Assembly: GCF_014645195.1 (NCBI RefSeq)
Contig: NZ_BMLK01000003.1
Location: 124,001-188,000, forward strand
DNA from: Novosphingobium indicum
GTDB lineage: Bacteria > Pseudomonadota > Alphaproteobacteria > Sphingomonadales > Sphingomonadaceae
Length of the DNA: 64,000 bases
Reading direction: 5' to 3'
The translations under genes and the position numbers were made by a program. The notes under the pieces were generated by a model, which was given only the letters and a program-made list of their open reading frames with translations, had not been told where the DNA came from and searched no databases. This document shows positions 48,504 through 62,357 of the stretch, in pieces. Each line of letters opens with the position of its first letter. The stretch's first letter is position 1.

Positions 48504-50699
48504 TCAAGTCAGTGTGCAAAGATGAAGCGGGTCGGACAGGGCATGGGTGCCGCGCTGACGCACAGTGAGGGGCTGTGTGGTTGCCTCGGGAAGCAGCGTG
48601 TTCAGCACCGCCGGCGGAATTTCCAGTCCGGGCTCGTGGGTGGTCCATTGGGCGAAGGGACTTTCGAAGGCCCCGAGCGTCACGATGTAGGTCTCTGCCT
48701 CCTCGACAAGGGGCACATCGACGCCGTCCTGCCATTGCCAGCCGCCACGCGCGCGGCGCGTCCAGCCGAGTGACAAGGTTCCGTCCGGTGCCTGCGAACA
48801 GCGCGAGTGAACGGGAGCGAGCGGTCGCAGGGTAATACCATCCAGAAGGACCGGCGCGACGACCGGGCTGTCGTCGCCGCGTCCTATCGCGACCAGTTGC
48901 CGCTCGCTTTGTCGCCCGAGAATACCGACATCGAGAGCAGTCGGTGCAGAATTGAGAACCACGAAAGGTTCGCCGGCAATATGCGATGCTGCCTTGCCTT
49001 CGGTGCCCCCTCGGCCCCGCAACAGGCCTTCGAGGCGCCAGTTGCCGTCACCGACCGGCGTCGCCTTCGCGAACTGCAGAATTTCCTCGCCAACCAGCGC
49101 CAGATTGGCGCCGAATGCGAGCTGACGCATGTCCACCGAGGCAAGCTGCATGGCCGGATCGACGAGCGAAACGATGATCTGCGACTGGCGGTCGACCAGC
49201 AACGGGCTGGCTGCGGGAAGAGCGTTCGATACTGTGCCGATCACGCTGCGCCCGCGATTGCTCGGACCGAGCGGATGGAGTTCGCCATCGCCCCGGTCGG
49301 CATAGAGAGCGGCACCGCGCCAGTTGGCGCTTGCACTGGAAACGGCGGCGAAGGCGCGCGGCGTATCCGCGTTCGCTTCCATCCCGTCCAGTGGCAGTTC
49401 GAAGGCGACCAGGGCGGTGGTGCCAATCGACATGTCTGACGCAAGGCTGGCCCGACCGGAATCGGCTGGCAGTTGTAGCGCGGTGGCTGATTCGCCGGGG
49501 GGAACCCGCGCCAGCGAAAGTTCGACGCCGCTCACATGCCATTCCCACTCAAGGACGCGCCAGCGCCCCGGAAGTCCGGGCAGGCTAACAATGGCGCCCG
49601 GGCTGGCAGCGGAATCCAGAGTGCATGTGCGCCAGGCAATGCGCTCGCGGGCCCAGTCGATCCGCCGCGCGTTGTTCTCGATAAGCTTGCGTGCAGATGC
49701 CGCGTCGATCGCGGCAGGCAGATCGATCGTCTGCGGTTCGCCCGCCGTCATCCGACCAACCGGACGTTGGGATCCCGGCAGGTAGTCGCGCTCCGGATCG
49801 TAGTATCGTAATACTTTCGGAAGTTGCTCGGGCGGTTTCGAGCGGTGCCTTGCCATTCCCGATGTCGGGCCGAACGCATCGTCTTCGACACTTGCTGCCG
49901 CTTCATCGACCATGACCGTGCCTGTCTGAAGCCGTTCGCGCGAAATGATAAGCTTCTCGGCCCCCGCGTCGGCTTCCAGCGGCAGGACCCGACCTAGAAT
50001 CTCGAGGCTGCCTGCCAGCGGACCGTCGCATGTAAGGCCCCGGAGTTCCGGCAGCGGAACGTTCGCATCAGCCTCTTCGATGACCTCGCCGATCACGTTC
50101 TGCAGCGTGATTTCCTCCTCGGCGACGACTTCGAATGTCAGTGCGGGGATGCGGTTGTAGTAGTCCGAAAGATCGAGGTCTTCGAACACCACATAGGCGA
50201 GGTCGCGGTGCGCCGGGCAGCGGCTCTCGCTCTCGGCGGCAAGGATCAAGGGATCGGGCTCCTGATCGCCCACGCCGGTGTAGACGCGCAGGGTGCCGCC
50301 GACCTTGAGATCGCCGGCTTCTCCACGCAGCAACTTGCCGTCGGCCCAGATGCGGCCGATCGACTGGATCGGACGGCTGGAAAGGGCCACTGCAAGGCTG
50401 ACTGTGTAGCTGTAGGTGGTCGCCGACGGAGCCCCCTTGCCGCCGCCTGTCGTCTCGCTGTGTTCGACCAGGTCGGTTGCCCATAAGATCGAACCGGCGA
50501 CGCGCATGCGGCCGAAGTGTCGGGGCAATATCTGGCCGTAGCTCGATGTGCTCACGGCCAGTTCGGCAAGGCGCGGCCCTTGCCGGCTAGACGAACCGAA
50601 CAGGGCCGTATCGACCTGTCGGCCGATCAGTGAACCGATGGCACCGCCGATCGGTCCGCCGAGATAAGAGCCAACCGCGTTGAAAACGATCGTTGCCAT
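48504..50699 (-). CDS. GTA megatron-like protein (g15), short form
   Basis: 731 residues; it starts 1 bp after the peptidase stop, with AGGAA as the binding site. The glycine-rich N-terminus (SYLGGPIGGAIGSLIGRQVD) and central YYNRIPALTFEVV, YYDPERDYLPGSQ match the sphingomonad/RcGTA g15 baseplate protein. RcGTA g15 is much longer and includes a TIM-barrel (GTA_TIM) domain; none is visible here. It probably forms the baseplate or fibre hub. Confidence 0.83.
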   Translation of the reverse strand: MATIVFNAVGSYLGGPIGGAIGSLIGRQVDTALFGSSSRQGPRLAELAVSTSSYGQILPRHFGRMRVAGSILWATDLVEHSETTGGGKGAPSATTYSYTVSLAVALSSRPIQSIGRIWADGKLLRGEAGDLKVGGTLRVYTGVGDQEPDPLILAAESESRCPAHRDLAYVVFEDLDLSDYYNRIPALTFEVVAEEEITLQNVIGEVIEEADANVPLPELRGLTCDGPLAGSLEILGRVLPLEADAGAEKLIISRERLQTGTVMVDEAAASVEDDAFGPTSGMARHRSKPPEQLPKVLRYYDPERDYLPGSQRPVGRMTAGEPQTIDLPAAIDAASARKLIENNARRIDWARERIAWRTCTLDSAASPGAIVSLPGLPGRWRVLEWEWHVSGVELSLARVPPGESATALQLPADSGRASLASDMSIGTTALVAFELPLDGMEANADTPRAFAAVSSASANWRGAALYADRGDGELHPLGPSNRGRSVIGTVSNALPAASPLLVDRQSQIIVSLVDPAMQLASVDMRQLAFGANLALVGEEILQFAKATPVGDGNWRLEGLLRGRGGTEGKAASHIAGEPFVVLNSAPTALDVGILGRQSERQLVAIGRGDDSPVVAPVLLDGITLRPLAPVHSRCSQAPDGTLSLGWTRRARGGWQWQDGVDVPLVEEAETYIVTLGAFESPFAQWTTHEPGLEIPPAVLNTLLPEATTQPLTVRQRGTHALSDPLHLCTLT

Positions 50700-51111: not shown

Positions 51112-51932
51112 GGGCCCGGCACGGGGTAGCGCGTGAGCAGGTCGTTGCCCGGCAGGAAAGGCTCGCCGCGAAAGTTCACTGCATTGCCGAAGCGGGAGGC
51201 GCAGGTGTCGAGCGTGTGATCGCACCCTTCGCGCATTTGCGCCCGAGTGCCGCTTGCGGGCGTTGCATCGATCGGGGTGTCCAGGACCAAGCTTCCGGTT
51301 CCATCGCCACCTGCGATTCCCATCGACAGACCTGCTTGCGGACCTTCGATCCATCGCAGCGTGCCTCCCAAGAACAGTGCCGGATCGACCGCTTCGACAA
51401 GGCGCACCGCATTGGCCTCGGGATCGCTCGCATCCACTGTCACTTCGTGGGTGAACTGCATGGGATTGAGGTTGCAGCCAGGACCGCAAAACGTCGCCCG
51501 GCAAGCAGGGCTGGTGCGGGGCACGGGATCGCGTTGCAAATCGGCCTTGCGCGAGACGAGATCTGCCGAGAACGCGCCGTCTTCCTGCGAAATCGTGCCG
51601 ATGGTCCCGGCATAGAGCACTTCGCGTTCCAGCGTTTCCCAATCGACTACGCCGATGCGGACCTGCGCGCCGTCGAAGCGACCTGCGGCGAGGTCTTCGC
51701 TCGTGATCGCCTCGTGCGAGAGTGCGCCGCGCACTTCGGCGCTGTCCGGTTCGAGATCGGCGGACTTTCGGATCGAAGAGGGCACCATGCCGGGCGAGGC
51801 GCGGTGGAGCACGCGGTCGAACCACAAGTCGCGGTCGTGCGTGGTGAAGCCCAGCGTCACCCCGTCGCGCCGCAGCACACGCCAGAAGGTGGCGACGGTT
51901 TCGAGATCGCTTGCGAACCAGACCCTGCTCAT
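51108..51932 (-). CDS. GTA DUF2163 tail hub protein (g13)
   Basis: 274 residues. Starts VWFASDLETVATFWRVLRRDGVTLGFTTHDRDL, typical of the TIGR02218/DUF2163 family. It has the cysteine-rich region CRATFCGPGCNLNP and C-terminal CDHTLDTCASRFGNAVNFRGEP. In RcGTA it makes part of the hub. Its start overlaps the g12 stop. Confidence 0.93.
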   Translation of the reverse strand: MSRVWFASDLETVATFWRVLRRDGVTLGFTTHDRDLWFDRVLHRASPGMVPSSIRKSADLEPDSAEVRGALSHEAITSEDLAAGRFDGAQVRIGVVDWETLEREVLYAGTIGTISQEDGAFSADLVSRKADLQRDPVPRTSPACRATFCGPGCNLNPMQFTHEVTVDASDPEANAVRLVEAVDPALFLGGTLRWIEGPQAGLSMGIAGGDGTGSLVLDTPIDATPASGTRAQMREGCDHTLDTCASRFGNAVNFRGEPFLPGNDLLTRYPVPGP

Positions 51933-54262
51933 GCTGCCTCGCGCACTTCGACGACGGGCACGCTGGGGGCCTCGCCAGCGGCAAAGGCGGCGCCGGAAAT
52001 TTCCAGCTGATCCTCGGCAAAGCGGACGGGGACGTCGAAGAGGAAGCCGGCGCGAACTACGGCGCCATCCGCAGGAGGGTCATCGAAGGCGATCACGCCT
52101 GCTTCACCCAGCGACCAGTTGCCGACCTGAACCACGCCATCGATGGAAACCACGATCGTCGCGAAATCGGGCCGGGTGATCCGGCGTATCTGGGCATCTT
52201 CACCATCGCCGTAGGCTTTGATCAGCGCGAATTCGGTGGTCATGCCGTCACCCGTGCCGAGGGTCTGGTCGAGTGCCGTCGGCTCTCCGGTCATGCCGTT
52301 CGAGCTGTGTTCGCTCGGATCGCGCAGCCGGAAGCCGCGTGCGGGTCCGCGCCGGGCCCGATAGAAGGTGATGAGCGTGCCGAGTTCGGCTTCAGAGCGC
52401 ACGCCGGGCCCGACGTCGAAGCGCAGCCGCGCGTTCGACCACTGGCTGTTGCGCCGCTCGAAGCCGGAGGCGGTCACTGCCACGCTGGTCGAGAATTCGG
52501 GAACGACGGTTGCGTCCCGCCCCAGTGCAAGCGGGTAGGATACGTCATCGAAAGCCTGCATGTCGGGCGGTCCTGTCATGTCGGGGGAGGGCAAGCGCAC
52601 GTATCCGTCGCGCGCGATCTGCGGCAGGGCCCAGACGACGATCTCGTGCGGGATGCGAGCAAGCGCTTCGTCGATCCCGGCGTCGATCCGCAGCCAATGG
52701 TCGCTGTCGGTAGAATTGAGCACGAAACCGGCGAGATAGTCCTGCTGCGCCGGCGGATAGCCGAGCCGCTGGTTGACCTCGGCATAGGCCTTGCGGCGGA
52801 GGCCATCGGCACCTGCAGTGAGCCAGTCGTAGTCCTCCACCTGCAGCCGGTCGAAGGCGGGAGAGGCCCACCCGACCGGCAGGTTCGCGCGCTTCAGCTC
52901 GGGCATGTCGGCGGCCAGCAGGGTGGGCGTGAATACCAGTGCCAGCGCTTCGACAGGCGCAGGATCGGCCGCGGTACGGACCGCGCTCACCAGATCGGCG
53001 GTCGATTGTGCAAGGAGCGCACCGGCGGCATCGAGCAGATCGGTCTGCGCAGTGTTCAGCGGCGCGCGCATATCGGGAATGGCAGGCGGGGCCCCGCCCA
53101 GCGCCGCTGACGACGCGGCATCATAAAGGCATATGCGCCCGTCGGAAAAAGTCCACCACCACGGTTCGCCGACTTGGAACCGCACGGGTGCCGCAGCTTC
53201 CGTCATCAGATCGGTGAAGGCAGAGGCGACCGATTGCAGCCAGTTCATCGCCTCCGCGTTCGCCGGAGACAGCAGCGTCGAGGGCGGAGACCATCCGGTC
53301 AGCGCGGGCGCGCCGAGATAGTCGCGCTGCTTCCAGTCTTCGGGGCAGTGCTGGTCGAGCAATTCGTAAGAGAGCGAGGCCATGGGGCTGAAACCCATCG
53401 CGACCGCTTCCGCGAAAATCGCCTGATGCCAGACCCGCGTCGGTGTGTTGAGCGGATCGGCGGTCTGCCCGGCGAGATAGACGCCGGACTGCACGACGAG
53501 CCGGAAGTAGTGGCTCATGCCGACATAGAGCACCAGCGAACCGCGATAGCCGAGCTGGCGGGCATTGCGCAGCAGACGGGCCGGGGTCTGAACGCCCTGA
53601 TCGTCGAACCCGGTGGCGAGCGCGAGACCATGTGGCGGCACCATGACATCGCCGATTTCCAGCATGGCGCGGGCGCCGTCGGTGGCAATCTCGCTCATCT
53701 CGATCCAGCCTTCGGTTTCGGCCGGTAGCGGATCGGCGCTGCCGTCGTAGCCCGGCGGAGCGAACGAGATGAACATGCGGTCGATATCGCCGGGCCAGAT
53801 CGGCTCGCCCGGCAGCGAGAATCCGGCTTGCAGGTCCGAGAAACGCAAGGTGATCCGAGCGTCTTCGCCGATGCCCTCGGCATAGTTCCAGAGCCGCACA
53901 TACCAGGTTCGCGCGCCGCCGTTTTCGTCGCGGCCCTCGATGGTCAGCGTCGGGCCGTAGATTGCATCGAGTGGCAGAATCCCGCCCGACTGCCAGCGGA
54001 AGCTGAGCGCGGTGCGGGCGTAATTGCGATCAGTCTTGTAGGCGAGCAGAGCGTGATCCAGCGTATCCTCGCTGGTCCAGATCAGACCGCCGAGATCGCC
54101 CTTGCGCAGGAACGAGGCGTCCACACGCAGCGCGTCCGGACCGGTCGAAATGACGGTCGCTACCATGGGGCGCGGGAAGTTGACGGTCCAGAAGCGCGGA
54201 TCGAAGCGGGTGATCCAGTCGCTCGCCTGCCCCTGCCGCTTTTCGGCAAGCCAGAATGCCAT
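51929..54262 (-). CDS. GTA DUF2460 distal tail protein (g12) with large N-terminal extension
   Basis: 777 residues. The DUF2460/TIGR02217 distal-tail domain covers only residues ~571-777 (from DDVSYPLALG). The first ~570 residues include a region that looks like a TIM-barrel (SLVLYVGMSHYF, FSPMASLSYELLDQ, RFQVGEPWWWTF). RcGTA g12 is about 210 residues, so this is a fusion. It could be related to non-contractile tail-sheath proteins, which is an inference. A palindromic repeat lies upstream. Confidence 0.85.
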   Translation of the reverse strand: MAFWLAEKRQGQASDWITRFDPRFWTVNFPRPMVATVISTGPDALRVDASFLRKGDLGGLIWTSEDTLDHALLAYKTDRNYARTALSFRWQSGGILPLDAIYGPTLTIEGRDENGGARTWYVRLWNYAEGIGEDARITLRFSDLQAGFSLPGEPIWPGDIDRMFISFAPPGYDGSADPLPAETEGWIEMSEIATDGARAMLEIGDVMVPPHGLALATGFDDQGVQTPARLLRNARQLGYRGSLVLYVGMSHYFRLVVQSGVYLAGQTADPLNTPTRVWHQAIFAEAVAMGFSPMASLSYELLDQHCPEDWKQRDYLGAPALTGWSPPSTLLSPANAEAMNWLQSVASAFTDLMTEAAAPVRFQVGEPWWWTFSDGRICLYDAASSAALGGAPPAIPDMRAPLNTAQTDLLDAAGALLAQSTADLVSAVRTAADPAPVEALALVFTPTLLAADMPELKRANLPVGWASPAFDRLQVEDYDWLTAGADGLRRKAYAEVNQRLGYPPAQQDYLAGFVLNSTDSDHWLRIDAGIDEALARIPHEIVVWALPQIARDGYVRLPSPDMTGPPDMQAFDDVSYPLALGRDATVVPEFSTSVAVTASGFERRNSQWSNARLRFDVGPGVRSEAELGTLITFYRARRGPARGFRLRDPSEHSSNGMTGEPTALDQTLGTGDGMTTEFALIKAYGDGEDAQIRRITRPDFATIVVSIDGVVQVGNWSLGEAGVIAFDDPPADGAVVRAGFLFDVPVRFAEDQLEISGAAFAAGEAPSVPVVEVREAA

Positions 54263-54293: not shown

Positions 54294-54379
54294 GTCGTCC
54301 CCGCGAAGGCGGGGACCTCGCTTCTTTGGGGTGGCAAAACGATGGGAAGAAAGCGGGACCCCGCCTACGCGGGGGCGAC
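54294..54379. repeat. Composite palindromic repeat between g11 and g12
   Basis: The arms GTCGTCCCCGCGAAGG... (54294-54317) and ...CGCGGGGGCGAC (54355-54379) pair over ~24 bases; CGCTTCTTT/AAGAAAGCG pairs further inside. The sequence is of the widespread 'CCCCGCGAAGGCGGGG' REP-like type seen in many proteobacterial genomes. Confidence 0.75.
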
Positions 54380-54383
54380 GATA

Positions 54384-54956
54384 TCAGTTGCCCGCCAGCG
54401 CCCGCCGAACCGCGCTCGCAACCTGCCTTGAGGAGCGTTGGAGCGATTGCGGCATAGTGCTGCCGCGCGGGGTGTTGAGGCTGATGGCGACACGAACGTC
54501 GCGGCTCGGCGGACGGGTGGACGTTTCGACCCGTCCGGCGGATGTTGGCACGAAGACTTCGGGTCCCCGCTCGCCGACGACATAACCGCGTCCGGGTGCG
54601 ACATTGCCGCCGGTCGCTCGGCCGGGCAGGCCCAGCGCGGCAGTGAACAGGCCGGCGAAGTCGATCAGACCGCCGCCGCTTCCGCTGGAGCCCGGCCCCA
54701 ATGATCCGAGCAAGGTATGCGCTGCTTGTGCGGCAATCTCGTCCAGAGTGGAAAGAGCAACGCGCTTGAGATCGTCGAAGCCCAGGCTGCCGCTGCGGAT
54801 TGCCCCGGCGAGGCCCTTTTCCAGTGCCTGCCCGGCTTTGGTGAAGCCGGAGACAAGGTCGCCGTCCACGGCGGACCGCATGGCCGCGATGTCGCGGGTG
54901 AAGCCGTCGGTACCGGCGCGGACTTCCACCAGCAGGCTGTCGATTTCATCGTCCAT
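54384..54956 (-). CDS. GTA tail tape-measure protein (g11)
   Basis: 190 residues. Mainly helical N-terminus, then a Gly-rich stretch (GPGSSGSGGGLIDFAG), and the tape-measure-like ATGGNVAPGRGYVVGERGPEVF. Short, as expected for GTA tails. It overlaps the chaperone gene by 11 bp. Confidence 0.85.
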   Translation of the reverse strand: MDDEIDSLLVEVRAGTDGFTRDIAAMRSAVDGDLVSGFTKAGQALEKGLAGAIRSGSLGFDDLKRVALSTLDEIAAQAAHTLLGSLGPGSSGSGGGLIDFAGLFTAALGLPGRATGGNVAPGRGYVVGERGPEVFVPTSAGRVETSTRPPSRDVRVAISLNTPRGSTMPQSLQRSSRQVASAVRRALAGN

Positions 54957-56356: not shown

Positions 56357-56533
56357 TTATCCTTTCGCGAAAAGCGGCCAGAGCAGGCGGGCGCGCCGCC
56401 ATCGCCGGGCGTCGCCGCGCCGGGCTAATGCCCGGGCCGCTATGTGGGCGACGGCGAGCGTGCGGGCTTTCCCGGTGAGCCGGGCGGTGAGCGATGCGAA
56501 GTCCGCTTCGGCTTCGATCATTCCGCCACTCAT
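56357..56533 (-). CDS. Short GTA connector-position protein (58 residues; g7 position)
   Basis: 58 residues from ATG 56533, overlapping the g6 stop (ATGA). Helical and arginine-rich (RRGDARRWRRARLLW). RcGTA g7 (head-tail stopper) is about 110 residues, so this is either truncated, a different protein, or a short family variant. It is between g6 and g8, so position argues for a connector. Confidence 0.6.
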   Translation of the reverse strand: MSGGMIEAEADFASLTARLTGKARTLAVAHIAARALARRGDARRWRRARLLWPLFAKG

Positions 56534-57072
56534 GCGAGGTGCATCCGCCGCCAGGGTCGCCACAGCGCGGCGACCGAAGCAGGCGGCAACGGCGCAGCGC
56601 CTTCGCTTTCCCGCTCGCGATGCTGGTGCGCGGCAAGGCGGATCAACCCGTGGCGCAGGCTTTCCGGCAGGTCGGCCCAATCGGCGGCAAGCCCGGCGGT
56701 GAAGCGCACGGCCACGCGCGCACCGGTGTCCGGCAAGCGAATGTGCCCGGTCCCGTCCGCATCGAGGTCGACTTCATAGGCCGCGGCATCGAGGGCCGAG
56801 CGTGAGCCGTCGGCTGCGATGATCTCGACATCTGAAATCGCCTGAACCGGACGCGTGGAGAGTGTGCGCCAGCCAGCGCGTGCGGTCAGAATTTCCTCGC
56901 ATTCGGCTTCGAGCGGCATCTGGCCGGTGAAGCCCTCGCAGACCTCGAGCGCCATGTTCAGCAGCGAAAGCAGCGGGGTATCGTCGCCCGTCGTGGTGAT
57001 GCCGAGCCATTGCTTGAGCTCGGCCAGCGCTGTGCCGGGCAGGACGGCAGGCGTAAGGATGACGCGGTTCAT
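56530..57072 (-). CDS. GTA head-tail connector protein (g6)
   Basis: 180 residues from ATG 57072 (MNRVILTPAVLPGTALAE); the frame back to 57258 lies in the capsid gene. The phage gp6-like/phiE125 gp8 pattern LAELKQWLGITTTGDD and LLNMALEVCEGFTGQ is visible. It joins portal and tail. Confidence 0.88.
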   Translation of the reverse strand: MNRVILTPAVLPGTALAELKQWLGITTTGDDTPLLSLLNMALEVCEGFTGQMPLEAECEEILTARAGWRTLSTRPVQAISDVEIIAADGSRSALDAAAYEVDLDADGTGHIRLPDTGARVAVRFTAGLAADWADLPESLRHGLIRLAAHQHRERESEGAAPLPPASVAALWRPWRRMHLA

Positions 57073-57151: not shown

Positions 57152-58726
57152 TCAGGCCGCGATCTTGAGCAGCTTGATCGCGTCGGAATCGAGTACCTGC
57201 CCGCCGATACGCCTCGTGGCGTAGAAGTGGACGAAGGGCTTGTTGGTGAAGGGGTCACGCAGGATCGCAGTCGCGCTGCGTTCGGCGATCAGGTAGCCGG
57301 CGCGGAAGTTGCCGAAGGCGATGGGGCATTCGTTCGCGGCGATATCGGGCATGTCCTCGGCCTCGACCACCGGGTAGCCGAGCAGGCGGTCGGGCTGGCC
57401 GTCCACCAGTCCGGGCTGCCACAGGAACGCGCCGTCCGAGGTCTTGAGCTTGCGCACTTCAGCCAGCGTTGCCGAGTTCATAACCCAGCTTGCGCCCTGC
57501 CGGTGCCCGGCCTTGAGCGAGTGGACCAGATCGATCAGCACCAGTTCGACCACGCTGCCGAGGGTATTGGTATCACCCGAAACGAGATGCTGCAGCGTGC
57601 CGAACGGACGCGCCGCGTCGCCGGAAGCACTGGTGGCTCCGGTGAGGAAGCCTCTGGGCTGGTTGGTGCCGCTGCCGCCGACGAAAGCGGCTCCTTCGGC
57701 GCGGGCGAATTCCATCGCGATCTCGTCGGCCAGCCACGACTGGATGTCGAAAGCGGCATCGTCGAGCATGGCCTGGCTGGCAGCTGGATTGGCATAGAGT
57801 TCGCCGGAGGGTGGGGCGATTTCGGAAAAGGTCGGCGTATCGGTTTCGGGGCGGGCGGTGGTTTCGCTCACCCAGCCCGAGGCGGTGCCGCCGGTGGTGA
57901 TGAGCTTGCGGTAGCCCGCCGAGCCGGTCTGCACGACTTGCGCGATGGCGCGGATCGGGCTGATGCTTTTGAGCCGCGTGGCTATCATCGCATCGATTTC
58001 CTGCGGCACGGCATAGCCGCCTTCGCCGCCGCTGGCCCCGCTCAGCGACTTGATCTCGCTCTCGCGGCCAAGGCGCAGGTAGCCGTCGACGAAGCCTTTC
58101 ACTTCGATGCCGGGCGTTCCGGCACCGGCGAGTGCAGGTCGGGCGGCGGCACGGCTGACCTTGTCGAGGCGTACCTTCACGTCGTCGACATCACCGCGCA
58201 GGCTTTCGACGGCCTGCTCGGTGGCGTCCTGCCGGGCGACGAGATCGAAGGAGGCGTCGAGGTTTTCCGTGGGGATGGGGGAGTCCATGGGGCAGATACC
58301 TTTCATGTGGGGAAGAAATCCTCCCCCGCCGGGGGAGGATACAAGATGCACCCGCGCGCCGTGCTGCATCGGGTGGGTGACGAGGCTCACTTCGAAGAGG
58401 TCGAGGTCGATCAGTTCTCGCCCCTCGCAGGTGCGCAGGCTGTCGCGGACGCGGTAGCCGAAGGAGAGGCCGGTCACCGCGCCGCGTCTTACGGCAAGAC
58501 CGGCGGCCCCTTCCGGATTGTCGATTTCGGCGATGACCCGCAGGCCGCGTTCGTCTTCGGCCACGGTTTTAACCCAGCCGACACGCTGGTCGGCGCGGTG
58601 CTGCCAGAACAGCGGCAGGGGATCGCGGCGGGCGGCCAGCGTGCGTGCGAAGGCGCCGGGCCGGATCGTGTCGCGTCCGGCATCGCGCTTGCCGAACAGG
58701 GCGGCGTAACCGGCGAAGCGCATCAC
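57152..58726 (-). CDS. Fused HK97-type prohead protease and major capsid protein (g4-g5)
   Basis: 524 residues in one frame. Residues 1-128 are a prohead protease: GYAALFGKRDAGRDTIRPGAF, catalytic His in WQHRADQRVGWV, Ser in AVTGLSFGYRV. From residue 147 (MDSPIPTENLDASFDLV) it is the HK97 major capsid protein with its coiled N-terminal scaffold and core (GYAVPQEIDAMIATRL, LGYPVVEAEDMP). The link (residues ~129-140, SSPGGGGFLP) is encoded by a palindrome. ATG 58288 behind AAAGG could start capsid separately (378 residues). RcGTA has two genes. Confidence 0.92.
   Translation of the reverse strand: MMRFAGYAALFGKRDAGRDTIRPGAFARTLAARRDPLPLFWQHRADQRVGWVKTVAEDERGLRVIAEIDNPEGAAGLAVRRGAVTGLSFGYRVRDSLRTCEGRELIDLDLFEVSLVTHPMQHGARVHLVSSPGGGGFLPHMKGICPMDSPIPTENLDASFDLVARQDATEQAVESLRGDVDDVKVRLDKVSRAAARPALAGAGTPGIEVKGFVDGYLRLGRESEIKSLSGASGGEGGYAVPQEIDAMIATRLKSISPIRAIAQVVQTGSAGYRKLITTGGTASGWVSETTARPETDTPTFSEIAPPSGELYANPAASQAMLDDAAFDIQSWLADEIAMEFARAEGAAFVGGSGTNQPRGFLTGATSASGDAARPFGTLQHLVSGDTNTLGSVVELVLIDLVHSLKAGHRQGASWVMNSATLAEVRKLKTSDGAFLWQPGLVDGQPDRLLGYPVVEAEDMPDIAANECPIAFGNFRAGYLIAERSATAILRDPFTNKPFVHFYATRRIGGQVLDSDAIKLLKIAA
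58288..58340 (-). promoter_or_regulatory. Palindrome and internal capsid start inside the fused ORF
   Basis: ATCCTCCCCC (58318-58327)/GGGGGAGGAT (58331-58340) with a GCC loop is a perfect 10-bp hairpin. Just after it on the minus strand comes AAAGG, 10 nt before the ATG at 58288. The palindrome seems to have replaced the protease stop region and to leave an internal capsid start. Confidence 0.6.
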
Positions 58727-59031
58727 CGCAGCATCCCTGTCGCGCCGAGCCGGACGGCGAGGCCCAGTAGCAGCAAGGCCAGAAGCCCCCGCACGATCCA
58801 GCCGATCACGGCGGTCTGCGCGCTCGACTTAGCATCGCGCCAGGCCTGCAGGAGTTGTCGCAGTTCGGAGAGGTCCTGCGTGGCGCTTTCATCGTCGAGC
58901 CCGACGCGTTCGAGCATGCGCGCCGCGCCCCGCTCGCTCGCTTCCTCGACGATGGCGCGCAGGGTGACGAGGTCGCTGCCTTCGTCCGCCGCCTGTGCGA
59001 GCAGTTCGGCCAGCATGTCATTTCTGTTCAT
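58723..59031 (-). CDS. GTA g3.5-like small membrane protein (DUF6127-type)
   Basis: 102 residues with helical N-terminus (LLAQAADEGSDLVTLRAIVEEASERGA) and one C-terminal membrane segment (LLALLLLGLAVRLGATG). Between portal and protease, as g3.5 in RcGTA. It overlaps the portal stop by 14 bp and the protease start by 4. Confidence 0.75.
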   Translation of the reverse strand: MNRNDMLAELLAQAADEGSDLVTLRAIVEEASERGAARMLERVGLDDESATQDLSELRQLLQAWRDAKSSAQTAVIGWIVRGLLALLLLGLAVRLGATGMLR

Positions 59032-60181
59032 GAAATGTTCCTTTCATTTCACCCAGCCCGAGCAAGGCGCGCTTTTCCTGCGGGTCGAGGAAGTCCGCGG
59101 CGCTGACTTGCGCCCAGAGCCGCTCGCGGTCCTCGGCGAGCGCGGGCACCCGGTCGAGATCGACGGCAAGGTTCGCCTCGGGGAACCAGGGCGAGAGGCC
59201 CTCGCACAGGCCGGCGAAGATCTTCGCGGCGAGCGGCAGCAGCGTAAGCCGCCACAAGGCGCGGTTGGCTTCGCGGTAGTTGGCGTAAGTCGAATCGCCG
59301 GGCAGGCCGAGCAGCATCGGCGGCACCCCGAAAGCGAGCGCGATGTCGCGGGCGGCCGCGGCCTTCAGCGTGGCGAAATCCATGTCCGCCGGGCTCAGCG
59401 CCATCGTCTGCCACTTGAGCCCGCCTTCGAGCACCATCGGCCGCCCGGCATTGCCTGCCCCGGCGAAGGCGCTGGCAAGCTCCGCCTTGAGCCGTTCGAA
59501 CTGGTCGCCGGTCAGCGCGCTGCCGTCCTCGGTTTCGTAGACCAGCGCGCCGGACGGGCGTGCGGCGTTTTCGAGGAGCTGGCGGTTCCATTCGGCCGCG
59601 GCGTTGTGGATCGCCACGGCCTGATCCGCCGCGCTCAGGCATCCGGCGCCGTAATGATCGTCTGCCGGGTGGAAGTGGCGCAAGTGGATCAGGTTGGGCG
59701 CGGCGTCCTCGTCCAGCAGCGGGATCGCCAGCCGCTTTCCGGCGACGTCATAGGCATAGGCGCTGGGCCAGCCGTTCTCACCCGCGACGATCGAGACGCG
59801 CTCGGGCCGCAGCGCGAAGAGTTCGACGGGCCTTCCGCGCGCATCCTTGAGCACCTGCACATAGGCATTGCCATGCAGGAGCAGATGCGAGGCCAGCGTC
59901 TCCAGCAGCGATTGCCCGGCGCTGGTTTCGCTGACCAGCGCGAGCAGTTTTGAATCCGCCGGTTTCAGCGGCGCCCCGCCGATCCCTTCGGCCACGAGCC
60001 TCACCGCGCGCTGCGCGACCGGGTTCTCCAGATAGGCGCGGCGGACGGCCGCGTTGTATTCGAAAGGGGCACGCCCGCCGCCGCTGTCGGCGAAGAACCA
60101 TGGCGAAGCCGGCCCGCGCGCCAGCGGCACACGCGCACTCTCGCCCTTGAAGGCGGCGACGAGCATATCGATGAAGGACAT
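59018..60181 (-). CDS. GTA portal protein (g3, HK97 family)
   Basis: 387 residues from ATG 60181 behind AAAGGA; the frame to 60412 crosses a repeat and is not used. Portal motifs: NPVAQRAVRLVAEGIGG, HGNAYVQVLKDARGRP, FGVPPMLLGLPGDSTYANYREA. It forms the dodecameric ring for DNA packaging. A palindromic repeat separates it from TerL. Confidence 0.93.
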   Translation of the reverse strand: MSFIDMLVAAFKGESARVPLARGPASPWFFADSGGGRAPFEYNAAVRRAYLENPVAQRAVRLVAEGIGGAPLKPADSKLLALVSETSAGQSLLETLASHLLLHGNAYVQVLKDARGRPVELFALRPERVSIVAGENGWPSAYAYDVAGKRLAIPLLDEDAAPNLIHLRHFHPADDHYGAGCLSAADQAVAIHNAAAEWNRQLLENAARPSGALVYETEDGSALTGDQFERLKAELASAFAGAGNAGRPMVLEGGLKWQTMALSPADMDFATLKAAAARDIALAFGVPPMLLGLPGDSTYANYREANRALWRLTLLPLAAKIFAGLCEGLSPWFPEANLAVDLDRVPALAEDRERLWAQVSAADFLDPQEKRALLGLGEMKGTFHEQK

Positions 60182-60212
60182 GGATTTCCTTTCGGTGTGA
60201 AGGGAAAAAATG

Positions 60213-60364
60213 GAGTTCACGCAGAGGCGCGGAGGCGCAGAGAACTTCGCTGCGCCGCAGGCTTTCTGAATCTTTCCGAGGTTGCGGCAAACGCATCTTG
60301 GGAGGAAAAAGCGGCTTTGCCGGAAGCACGAAATCTCCGCGTCTCCGCGCCTCTGCGTGAACTC
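60213..60364. repeat. 31-bp-arm inverted repeat between portal and TerL
   Basis: The arms (60213-60243 and 60334-60364), each starting GAGTTCACGCAGAGGCGCGG on its own strand, match at 29 of 31 positions. The spacer is 90 bp. It belongs to the 'TTCACGCAGAGGCGC' repeat type found in many proteobacteria. Confidence 0.82.
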
Positions 60365-60374
60365 TTTTAAAACC

Positions 60375-61700
60375 CTAAGTCGTCCGAATTCGCGGCTCAG
60401 CGGCTTTCCCAAGCATCAGTTCGGTCAGTGCCCAAACCAGCGCATCGGCGCGGTCTGGCGAGCGGCCGGGCCCCTGATAGGCGCCACCGGCCACCAGTCC
60501 GCACAGTTCGTCTTCCAGCTCCGGGAATGTCCCGGCGTGGCGCACCCGGCCCGCTTCGTAGAGGGCGGCCACTGGCTCGGCGCGGGCGGTCTTGCCCCGG
60601 CTGGCGTGGACCAGCTTGAGCGGCAGCGCGATGTCCGCCGCGCGCAGGACGCTGCCGACCATCGCGCCGCCCTGATTGGCTTCGGCCACGACCTTATCGA
60701 CTTGCCAGGCCCCGGCAGTGCGGGCGACGGCGCGGGCCCAGCGTTCGGGGCTGGCCCTCTGCACCGAGGCATCGGCGAGAACATGCGCCGTCCCGTCTTC
60801 CGTACGTCCGGCGACGAGGATCCCGCAGGCATCGCCGCCGCTGGAGGCGGGCGGATCGACGCCTACGACTACGCGGACAAGCTCGGGGGCCTCGGTTTCG
60901 CGGCATTGCTCGATCAGCGCGCGGGTCCACAGCGCGCCTTCGATATCGTCGAGCAGCTCGCCGTCGAGTTCCTGCCGGCCCAGCAGCGACTTGCCGAACT
61001 GGCGGCGAATGTCGCGGACGAAACGGCCCGGCAGGTTGGCGCGGTTGTCTTCGGTGCAGCCGCGCGTGACGGCCAGTGCATCGTCCGCCTCTTCCATCAG
61101 CCGGCGCACCAGCGGCACCGCGCGGGGCGTTGTCGTGGCGACCAGACGCGGATGTTCGCCGAGCCGCAGGCCGAACAGCAGGTTGTCCCAGGCGCGGGTC
61201 GCCCGCTGCGAGGCATTGTCCCATTTGGCGATTTCGTCGCACCAGGCATGGCTGTGCTGGGGCCCGCGCAGCGTCTCGGGATCGCCCGCCGAATAGAGCA
61301 GTGCCTGCGCACCGTTGGGCCACGAAATCCGCCGCAGGCTCGGTTCGAACTCCGGGCGGTGGCGTAGGGGACACACGCCCAGCAGCCCGCTTTCGCCTTC
61401 GACCATCACAGCGCGGACTTCGGGCAGCGAGGCCCCGACAAGGGCAATCCGCGCCTGCGGATCGGTATCGGCAACCGCGCGGGCCCATTCGGCGCCTGCG
61501 CGCGTCTTGCCGAAGCCGCGCCCGGCCATGATCAGCCAGGTGCGCCAGTCACCCGGCGGGGGGAGCTGTTCGCTGCGGGCCCAGAGCTTCCAGTGGGTCT
61601 GCACTTCCTCACGCTCGGTGTCGGACAGGGTGCGCAGCTTTTCTCGTCGTTCCTCCAGAGTCAGCTTGTTGAGGATGCGAAGCTGCTCACTGATCGCCAT
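60375..61700 (-). CDS. GTA terminase large subunit (g2)
   Basis: 441 residues from ATG 61700; the frame to 61910 is inside g1. Walker A MAGRGFGKT (residues ~59-66), Walker B AWCDEIAKW, and the RNase H-like nuclease domain from VVVGVDPPASSGG with a final metal Asp in SPDRADALVWAL. It packages DNA. It overlaps the small terminase by 14 bp. Confidence 0.95.
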   Translation of the reverse strand: MAISEQLRILNKLTLEERREKLRTLSDTEREEVQTHWKLWARSEQLPPPGDWRTWLIMAGRGFGKTRAGAEWARAVADTDPQARIALVGASLPEVRAVMVEGESGLLGVCPLRHRPEFEPSLRRISWPNGAQALLYSAGDPETLRGPQHSHAWCDEIAKWDNASQRATRAWDNLLFGLRLGEHPRLVATTTPRAVPLVRRLMEEADDALAVTRGCTEDNRANLPGRFVRDIRRQFGKSLLGRQELDGELLDDIEGALWTRALIEQCRETEAPELVRVVVGVDPPASSGGDACGILVAGRTEDGTAHVLADASVQRASPERWARAVARTAGAWQVDKVVAEANQGGAMVGSVLRAADIALPLKLVHASRGKTARAEPVAALYEAGRVRHAGTFPELEDELCGLVAGGAYQGPGRSPDRADALVWALTELMLGKAAEPRIRTT

Positions 61701-62187
61701 GGGCATCCCCGGCAGGTTCGTCCTGCGGCGCGGGCAGAGCCTTGAGCGAGCGTTCGCGCATCTTCTCGATCTTGGCGTTGATGGCATCGAGGATGGCCTC
61801 GGAATTGCGGTTCTGGTGGATCGCGCGCTGGCATGCGGCGCTTTCGCGGTGGGCGGCGAGCAGGCGCAGCGCAGTGGCATTGTCGAACACGCGAGTGCCG
61901 CGTCTGACACCGCTGGCGGGCTTGATCTCGCCTTCGCGCAGCCGCTGCAGCAGGCTCATTTCGAGGTGATCGTACCCCTCGCACAGCGCGACCTGCCATT
62001 CGCGGTAGAATTCCGGATCGCTGCGGCGCAGGTCGTAGGCGCGCGAGGTGGCGATGCCGGCCTTGCGCGCCGAGGCGGCGACATTGGAAGTGGCGGCCAG
62101 CTCGGCAAGGAAGGCCTTGCGCCAGTTGCGCGGCGGAGTCTTGTCCCCGACCGGCGCATGCCGACGGGGCGGGCTTTGCTTGGCCAT
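61687..62187 (-). CDS. GTA small terminase-like DNA-packaging protein (g1)
   Basis: 166 residues from ATG 62187, with a perfect AGGAGG (minus strand, 62201-62196) 8 nt upstream. The HTH-like N-terminus FLAELAATSNVAASARKAGIATSRAYDLRRSD fits small terminases; a helical end (AILDAINAKIEKMRERS) follows. First gene of the GTA cluster. The binding site lies inside a palindromic repeat arm. Confidence 0.83.
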   Translation of the reverse strand: MAKQSPPRRHAPVGDKTPPRNWRKAFLAELAATSNVAASARKAGIATSRAYDLRRSDPEFYREWQVALCEGYDHLEMSLLQRLREGEIKPASGVRRGTRVFDNATALRLLAAHRESAACQRAIHQNRNSEAILDAINAKIEKMRERSLKALPAPQDEPAGDAHGDQ

Positions 62188-62194
62188 GTGGATT

Positions 62195-62357
62195 TCCTCC
62201 TTGATGGGGGAAGGATACGAAGCCATGGCGACGAAGGAGCCTAGGCGCAGTTGGAAGGGGGTGAGGTTGCGCGAAGGTGCCAAGCACCCCCACCCAACTT
62301 CGGCTAAGCCGCTTCGCGACCAGGCCTGCGTATCCCTTCCCCATCAAGGGGGGAGGA
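62195..62357. repeat. Palindromic repeat just upstream of the GTA cluster
   Basis: TCCTCCTTGATGGGGGAAGG... (62195-62219) pairs with CGTATCCCTTCCCCATCAAG... (62329-62357) with small indels. The left arm carries the Shine-Dalgarno of the small terminase. Another arm pair, near 62255-62300, is possible. Confidence 0.75.

Follow-up and report, generated by a model that had tools for sequence, protein, structure and literature searches.

The window, by which we mean the whole stretch of 64,000 nucleotides of the Novosphingobium indicum genome that was analysed, carries genes for terminase, portal, protease, connector, tail tube, DUF2460, BR0599 and Rcc01698-like proteins on a single strand. Judged from its genes alone, this locus is an RcGTA-like head-tail cluster, and the g-numbers used here follow the RcGTA numbering. 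The annotated genes and the junction features described below lie on the minus strand. Upstream of the protease, Pfam identified a large terminase (g2-like, 60375..61910), a portal protein (g3-like, 59018..60412) and, between portal and protease, a small ORF with a DUF6127 domain (58723..59031). Downstream of the capsid are a head-tail connector (g6-like, 56530..57072; weak Pfam match, 1.7e-5), a DUF2460 protein of 777 aa (g12-like, 51929..54262) and an Rcc01698-like tail protein (g15-like, 48504..50699). Pfam matches were obtained for eight of the ten neighbouring ORFs scanned (terminase, portal, DUF6127, connector, NCTSP/DUF2460, BR0599, tail tube and Rcc01698-like), and none for the ORFs at 61690-62283 and 54387-54956.

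The locus resembles RcGTA in its capsid (Rcc01687) and in a cluster with terminase, portal, DUF2460 and Rcc01698-like proteins, and differs from it in the fusion of protease and capsid and in the N-terminal part of the g12-like protein. RcGTA's own g12 is short, whereas the DUF2460 protein of the window has matches to the non-contractile tail sheath N-terminal (NCTSP) and TIM-barrel families in front. The TIM-barrel family occurs in 25 of 41 related genomes, among them that of the window, and is thus widespread within the order.

Protease and capsid share a single frame, stop-free from 57152 to 58726, that encodes 524 aa from a GTG start with an ATG one codon on, and joins a g4-like prohead protease to a g5-like major capsid protein. 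Pfam placed Peptidase_S78 at residues 3-129 (4.7e-22) and Phage_capsid at residues 236-522 (6e-87), and the PHROGs matches were to head maturation protease and major head protein families. In the assembled sequence the fusion is therefore real: a Peptidase_S78 prohead protease is joined in frame to an HK97-type capsid. One family, phrog_2263, covers residues 18-481 as a single stretch, which suggests that it contains fused members. The protease part (residues 1-131, 58334..58726) retains His43 and Ser88, presumably the catalytic residues by family, in alignment columns at least 97% conserved across 221 rows. The capsid frame from its own ATG (MDSPIP..., 57152..58288) encodes a relative of RcGTA Rcc01687, to which it aligns in 6tb9, and it also aligns to 6tba (7.7e-81). 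Herpesvirus assemblin was also weakly matched by the protease part (58334-58726; best E 0.0049), in agreement with the kinship between the maturation proteases of phages and those of herpesviruses.

At the junction lies the palindrome ATCCTCCCCCG-c-CGGGGGAGGAT (58318..58340), with arms of 11 nt and a spacer of 1 nt. Folded alone as RNA, it forms a stem of 10 bp closed by a GGC loop, at -18.7 kcal/mol (z -2.63), while the 111-nt region around it folds no better than its shuffles (z -0.83; 39 of 200 shuffles as good). The protease of close relatives typically ends ...ARVHLxS-stop exactly where this palindrome starts. The preliminary description had reported a perfect 10-bp hairpin at the end of the protease, an ORF that reads through the protease into the capsid and a separate capsid start at 58288, and all three were borne out, the last as an ATG preceded by a GAAAGG Shine-Dalgarno (SD) sequence.

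The window stem, CCTCCCCCGGCGGGGGAGG, is an exact copy of the right-hand end of an element found in another genome of its clade (G067), and the pattern CCTCCCC-N1-12-GGGGAGG occurs at 16 places in the window's own genome, whereas the reversed pattern, taken as a control, gave 2; among the 16 is at least one repeat of another kind, whose loop is longer. Together, these observations indicate that the palindrome is not a chance string.

We surveyed the evolutionary distribution of the fusion by reading the protease-capsid junction in related genomes. A first search gave a match in 46 of 61 genomes, and a search of the genus gave one in 128 of 195; among the matches listed, only that of the window was stop-free over residues 1-524. 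Junctions were read in three sets, of 124 (from 130 loci, 6 of which lacked one gene), 20 and 77 (of 78 further genus stretches), giving 221 rows, with some species present twice from two collections, and 196 distinct junctions. The numbers fused were one (the window), zero and zero, respectively. Thus, one of the 196 distinct junctions is fused, the window itself, and so is one of the 122 Novosphingobium genomes with a junction read (25, plus the 20 and 77 of the latter two sets), the genus having yielded a match in 128 genomes. Comparison with relatives revealed no case of the same fusion without a palindrome.

Because every other junction read was unfused, we rejected the idea that the fusion is a trait of the clade, and it is not kept among the relatives that make up the 196 distinct junctions. 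Four genomes whose equal open-frame lengths had hinted at fusion (G028, G047, G048 and G049) each have a stop between the two genes. Novosphingobium proteases commonly end in ...ARVHLVS, LIA or LLG followed by a stop, with longer tails in others. Three loci counted as separate carry little information on the junction, since their protease frame is broken further upstream: in N. panipatense (L101, with the same gap in L203) and in L201 the break falls well before the usual end, reflecting either a pseudogene or a sequencing error. The exact 28-base junction pattern had 0 matches in viral contigs, a result of little weight, as records of the window's genome, or near it, may be absent from them.

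In some relatives, the site of the palindrome is occupied by a larger element. We identified this element at the protease stop at lengths of 146 bp in G067, 137 bp in G006 and 123 bp in N. malaysiense (L070; 94% identical), whose junction sequence is that of G086. In G067, G006 and N. malaysiense the protease runs into the element and ends at a stop that the element carries. The element carries TCCTCCCC-n-GGGGAGG stems at its two ends, and structure prediction has it folding back on itself over nearly its full length. Matches to it at E<=1, partial or full, with many single arms, some marginal cases and several strong ones, were found at 48 places in G006, 13 in G086 and 13 in G000, the best in G000 being C21:52414-52546 (2.1e-15). 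The junction element is therefore dispersed, with several copies in the genome and inverted stems at both ends.

Such stems occur in 9 of the 196 junctions, and in two further loci (L270 and L084) the element likewise lengthens the protease. In a Novosphingobium MAG (L115), the protease crosses the whole element and ends at a TAA beside the capsid SD, 7 bases before the ATG, a near-parallel that amounts to an independent near-fusion. Rfam gave 8 matches at E<=1 and none at the gathering score, and we did not find the junction repeat named in the literature consulted. Bacterial palindromes such as REPs (GTAG and CGTC families), Rickettsial RPEs included, are described in passages of one source (PMC3733652) as short and dispersed, occurring singly or as dimers. 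The junction repeat resembles them in consisting of short dispersed palindromes, whereas window-type stems end in TCCTCCCC/GGGGAGGA, and inspection of the junction copies by eye showed neither a GTAG nor a CGTC tag.

A tree of protease and capsid places the window and G086 as sisters (100/100), within a six-row clade (99/96) that holds the window, G086, G067 and G006. G062, which lacks the element, joins this sister pair (87/85), and G031, of the same clade, has a different repeat at its junction, indicating that the element was inserted or lost more than once and that the order of events is not fixed. Because the multiple alignment of the junctions sets the left flank of the window row wrongly, we used from it only lengths, frame offsets, a 6-base gap and pairwise alignments of the element. 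The element measures 123 bp in G086 against about 22 in the window, so that about 101 bp are absent; the capsid frame offset is 2 in G086 and 0 in the window, and the window has 6 extra bases at the capsid start relative to N. malaysiense. In that nearest relative the right-hand stem is CCTCCCCCCGCCGGGGGAGG, slightly unlike the window stem.

The reading that we favour, at a probability of roughly 70%, is that of an RcGTA-like head-tail cluster in which the decay of a dispersed palindromic element made the protease-capsid fusion. Comparison shows the starting state, in which relatives bear an inverted-repeat element of 123-146 bp at the protease stop, which the protease enters and in which it stops. 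The window lineage would then have lost the inside of the element, probably between the direct CCTCCCC repeats of both terminal stems, leaving one stem of about 22 bp. Since the element-borne stop would have gone with the inside, the protease frame would have happened into that of the capsid, and the two genes would have come to lie in frame. The palindrome would thus be the one remaining terminal stem of the element. The link between fusion and palindrome that had been proposed is supported. The fusion is singular and was probably caused by this decay; against such an origin count the single fused sequence, a draft genome of 103 contigs, the slightly different right-hand stem of N. malaysiense and the repeated insertion or loss within the clade. 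If correct, it would provide a traceable case in which a stop codon was captured, and then lost, by way of a dispersed palindromic repeat, with the result that two genes of virion assembly were fused.

The main doubt on the fusion concerns assembly across the hairpin in this draft genome. The element, rich in hairpins, might have been skipped or miscounted in assembly, with the real genes separate, an explanation that we consider unlikely but take seriously. It is consistent with the 103 contigs of the draft and with the fact that every relative read is unfused, and strong hairpins are difficult templates. Beyond the stem, in addition, a stop comes after four codons in one of the two alternative frames, and the base change that creates ATGA at 58306-58303 provides a stop in another frame, such that one surplus base in the palindrome would suffice for an apparent fusion. 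However, the stem in the assembly is symmetric and matches the element end in G067 exactly, both of which an indel would break, and the junction lies inside a 284-kb contig. Solo stems moreover occur at five other places in the genome (C2, C4:153116, C7, C8 and C13), a solo stem being one with no second perfect stem listed nearby, so that imperfect partners would escape the listing.

After such decay of the element, ribosomes passing from protease into capsid would give a small amount of fusion protein, of about 55 kDa by its length, and most capsid synthesis would still start at the conserved GAAAGG/ATG. We assumed that a true fusion would leave the capsid with no independent start; the window retains both the ATG at 58288 and the GAAAGG (58299..58304), and has another in-frame ATG at 58306. 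The motif scan of capsid starts covered 116 rows with a capsid match starting at query residue 1 and detected an SD-like motif in 115 of them, the single miss (L017) having TAAGG, a form outside the motif list. The spacing between SD and ATG is the same in the window and in N. malaysiense. As the capsid's own start and Shine-Dalgarno sequence are conserved, free capsid should still be the bulk product, and the sequence makes a minor fusion protein beside normal free capsid the likely output.

In HK97-type biology, the protease acts inside the prohead and trims the N-terminal region of the capsid. By analogy, the fusion would be tolerated, since a protease that trims this region from within the prohead could free itself, and self-release from the fusion is plausible on these grounds. 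In the passages of the RcGTA structure paper (PMC7296036), we found none on capsid trimming. The window offers a natural test of whether a GTA can cope with a capsid to which the protease is tied.

The preliminary description had envisaged that the fusion could change the stoichiometry of assembly. A purposeful shift of this kind was not supported: the fusion occurs only once and is compatible with the decay of a repeat, and the capsid start and SD are conserved. In another reading the fusion is selected, and the capsid would be made mainly as a protease-capsid fusion, with the internal start as a relic. We regard this as extremely improbable, although it has precedents in Arthrobacter and Microbacterium phages and in the RcGTA-like phage clusters LC2 and LC3, and dN/dS is low in both parts. 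For the protease, the pairwise value between the window and G086 was 0.176, against 0.08-0.28 for other pairs among the seven genomes compared; for the capsid it was 0.065, against 0.12-0.20 for the other pairs. These pairwise values give no date for the fusion and are not assignable to the time after it. The occurrence of the fusion in a single sequence, and the unchanged SD/ATG spacing relative to N. malaysiense, further argue against selection.

The fused architecture is not in itself new, being already known in phages, RcGTA-like ones included. Passages in the sources describe capsid and protease as one polypeptide in Arthrobacter cluster AW phages (PMC12760985), and a capsid-protease fusion in Microbacterium cluster EE phages, such fusions being common in small-genome siphoviruses (PMC9671004). 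The window resembles these siphoviruses in holding protease and capsid in a single polypeptide. Unlike in the small siphoviruses, its fusion is a singleton, its linker derives from a repeat and the capsid has kept its own start. Closer to RcGTA, the RcGTA-like phage clusters LC2 and LC3 are reported to have a protease domain within a lengthened capsid gene (PMC11409702), so that the functions of g4 and g5 are fused in relatives of RcGTA. The fused gene of LC2 and LC3 lies ahead of the portal, whereas the order in the window is portal, protease-capsid, connector. Our searches of open-licence papers turned up no protease-capsid fusion reported for a sphingomonad GTA. A Moraxella phage 'coat protein', considered as a further fused protease-capsid, proved to be two separate genes.

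The likeness to lambda is of another kind. In the lambda annotation, C and nu3 end at the same point, and in the window, too, a second product ends together with the protease ORF; lambda nests a scaffold (assembly) protein and not a capsid, its protease is annotated as S49, and we claim no relation. If the element decayed as proposed, the genes of the window would have become nested in frame by accident, in the manner of lambda C/Nu3, and the fusion looks like an accident of genome evolution and not a new machine.

We additionally identified hairpins before the capsid gene in many Sphingomonadales GTAs. A terminator-like hairpin, G+C-rich and followed by a T run, lies between the protease stop and the capsid SD in 39 of 168 gaps (those of more than 30 bases, in rows with a capsid match starting at query residue 1), whereas 20 shuffled sets averaged 0.5 and never exceeded 2. 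An earlier set gave 32 of 104 gaps with such a hairpin, against 0 of 312 capsid coding stretches. Across 71 named loci, it was present in 27 gaps, against 14 sense sites in all other sequence of 532 kb, and no antisense terminator-like site was found within the gaps of these loci. Its typical form is GGCCGCC-nnn-GGCGGCC-TTTTTTGTG (for example in L067, L074, L097, L114 and L130), and it lies 7 to 61 bases from the SD in the 23 of 27 gaps in which an SD was found. Only the terminator-like form stands out, as gap hairpins scored by stem length alone gave a weak signal (20 of 102 at p<=0.05, 8 at p<=0.01). In the row of the window the gap starts inside the palindrome, so that its own stem is not fully counted in the sets of 102, 104 and 168 gaps.

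These hairpins raise a further explanation for the window, in which the palindrome, lying ahead of the capsid gene, acts in the mRNA as a hairpin of the terminator-like or processing kind, and read-through allows ribosomes to melt it and so raises capsid expression. The frequency of such hairpins (39 of 168 gaps, and 27 gaps in the 71 loci) would fit this role, as would the TTTCTTCC that comes right after the window stem. We nonetheless hold it to be very improbable, given that the U tract in the window is weak, that its stem derives from a dispersed repeat and that 129 of the 168 gaps have no such hairpin; a general scan, moreover, found 4 sites in 4.5 kb, two of them overlapping forms of the palindrome, against 3.0 expected.

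A combined scenario is also conceivable, and we consider it a long shot. Here the Sphingomonadales GTA hairpin would tune the ratio of protease to capsid, and the element would have usurped its site in the window's clade; the lost stop would then let ribosomes cross the hairpin, so that the repeat would have rewired capsid expression as well as fused the genes. Pre-capsid hairpins would make it possible to test what determines the proportions of GTA proteins and, as a by-product of this analysis, they may be more interesting than the fusion.

Finally, we noted a second palindromic repeat in the window, GTCGTCCCCGCGAAGGCGGGGACC...GGGACCCCGCCTACGCGGGGGCGACGA, at 54294-54381, between the ORFs at 51929-54262 and 54384-54956. 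A repeat that resembles it occupies the protease-capsid gap in N. chloroacetimidivorans (L128).
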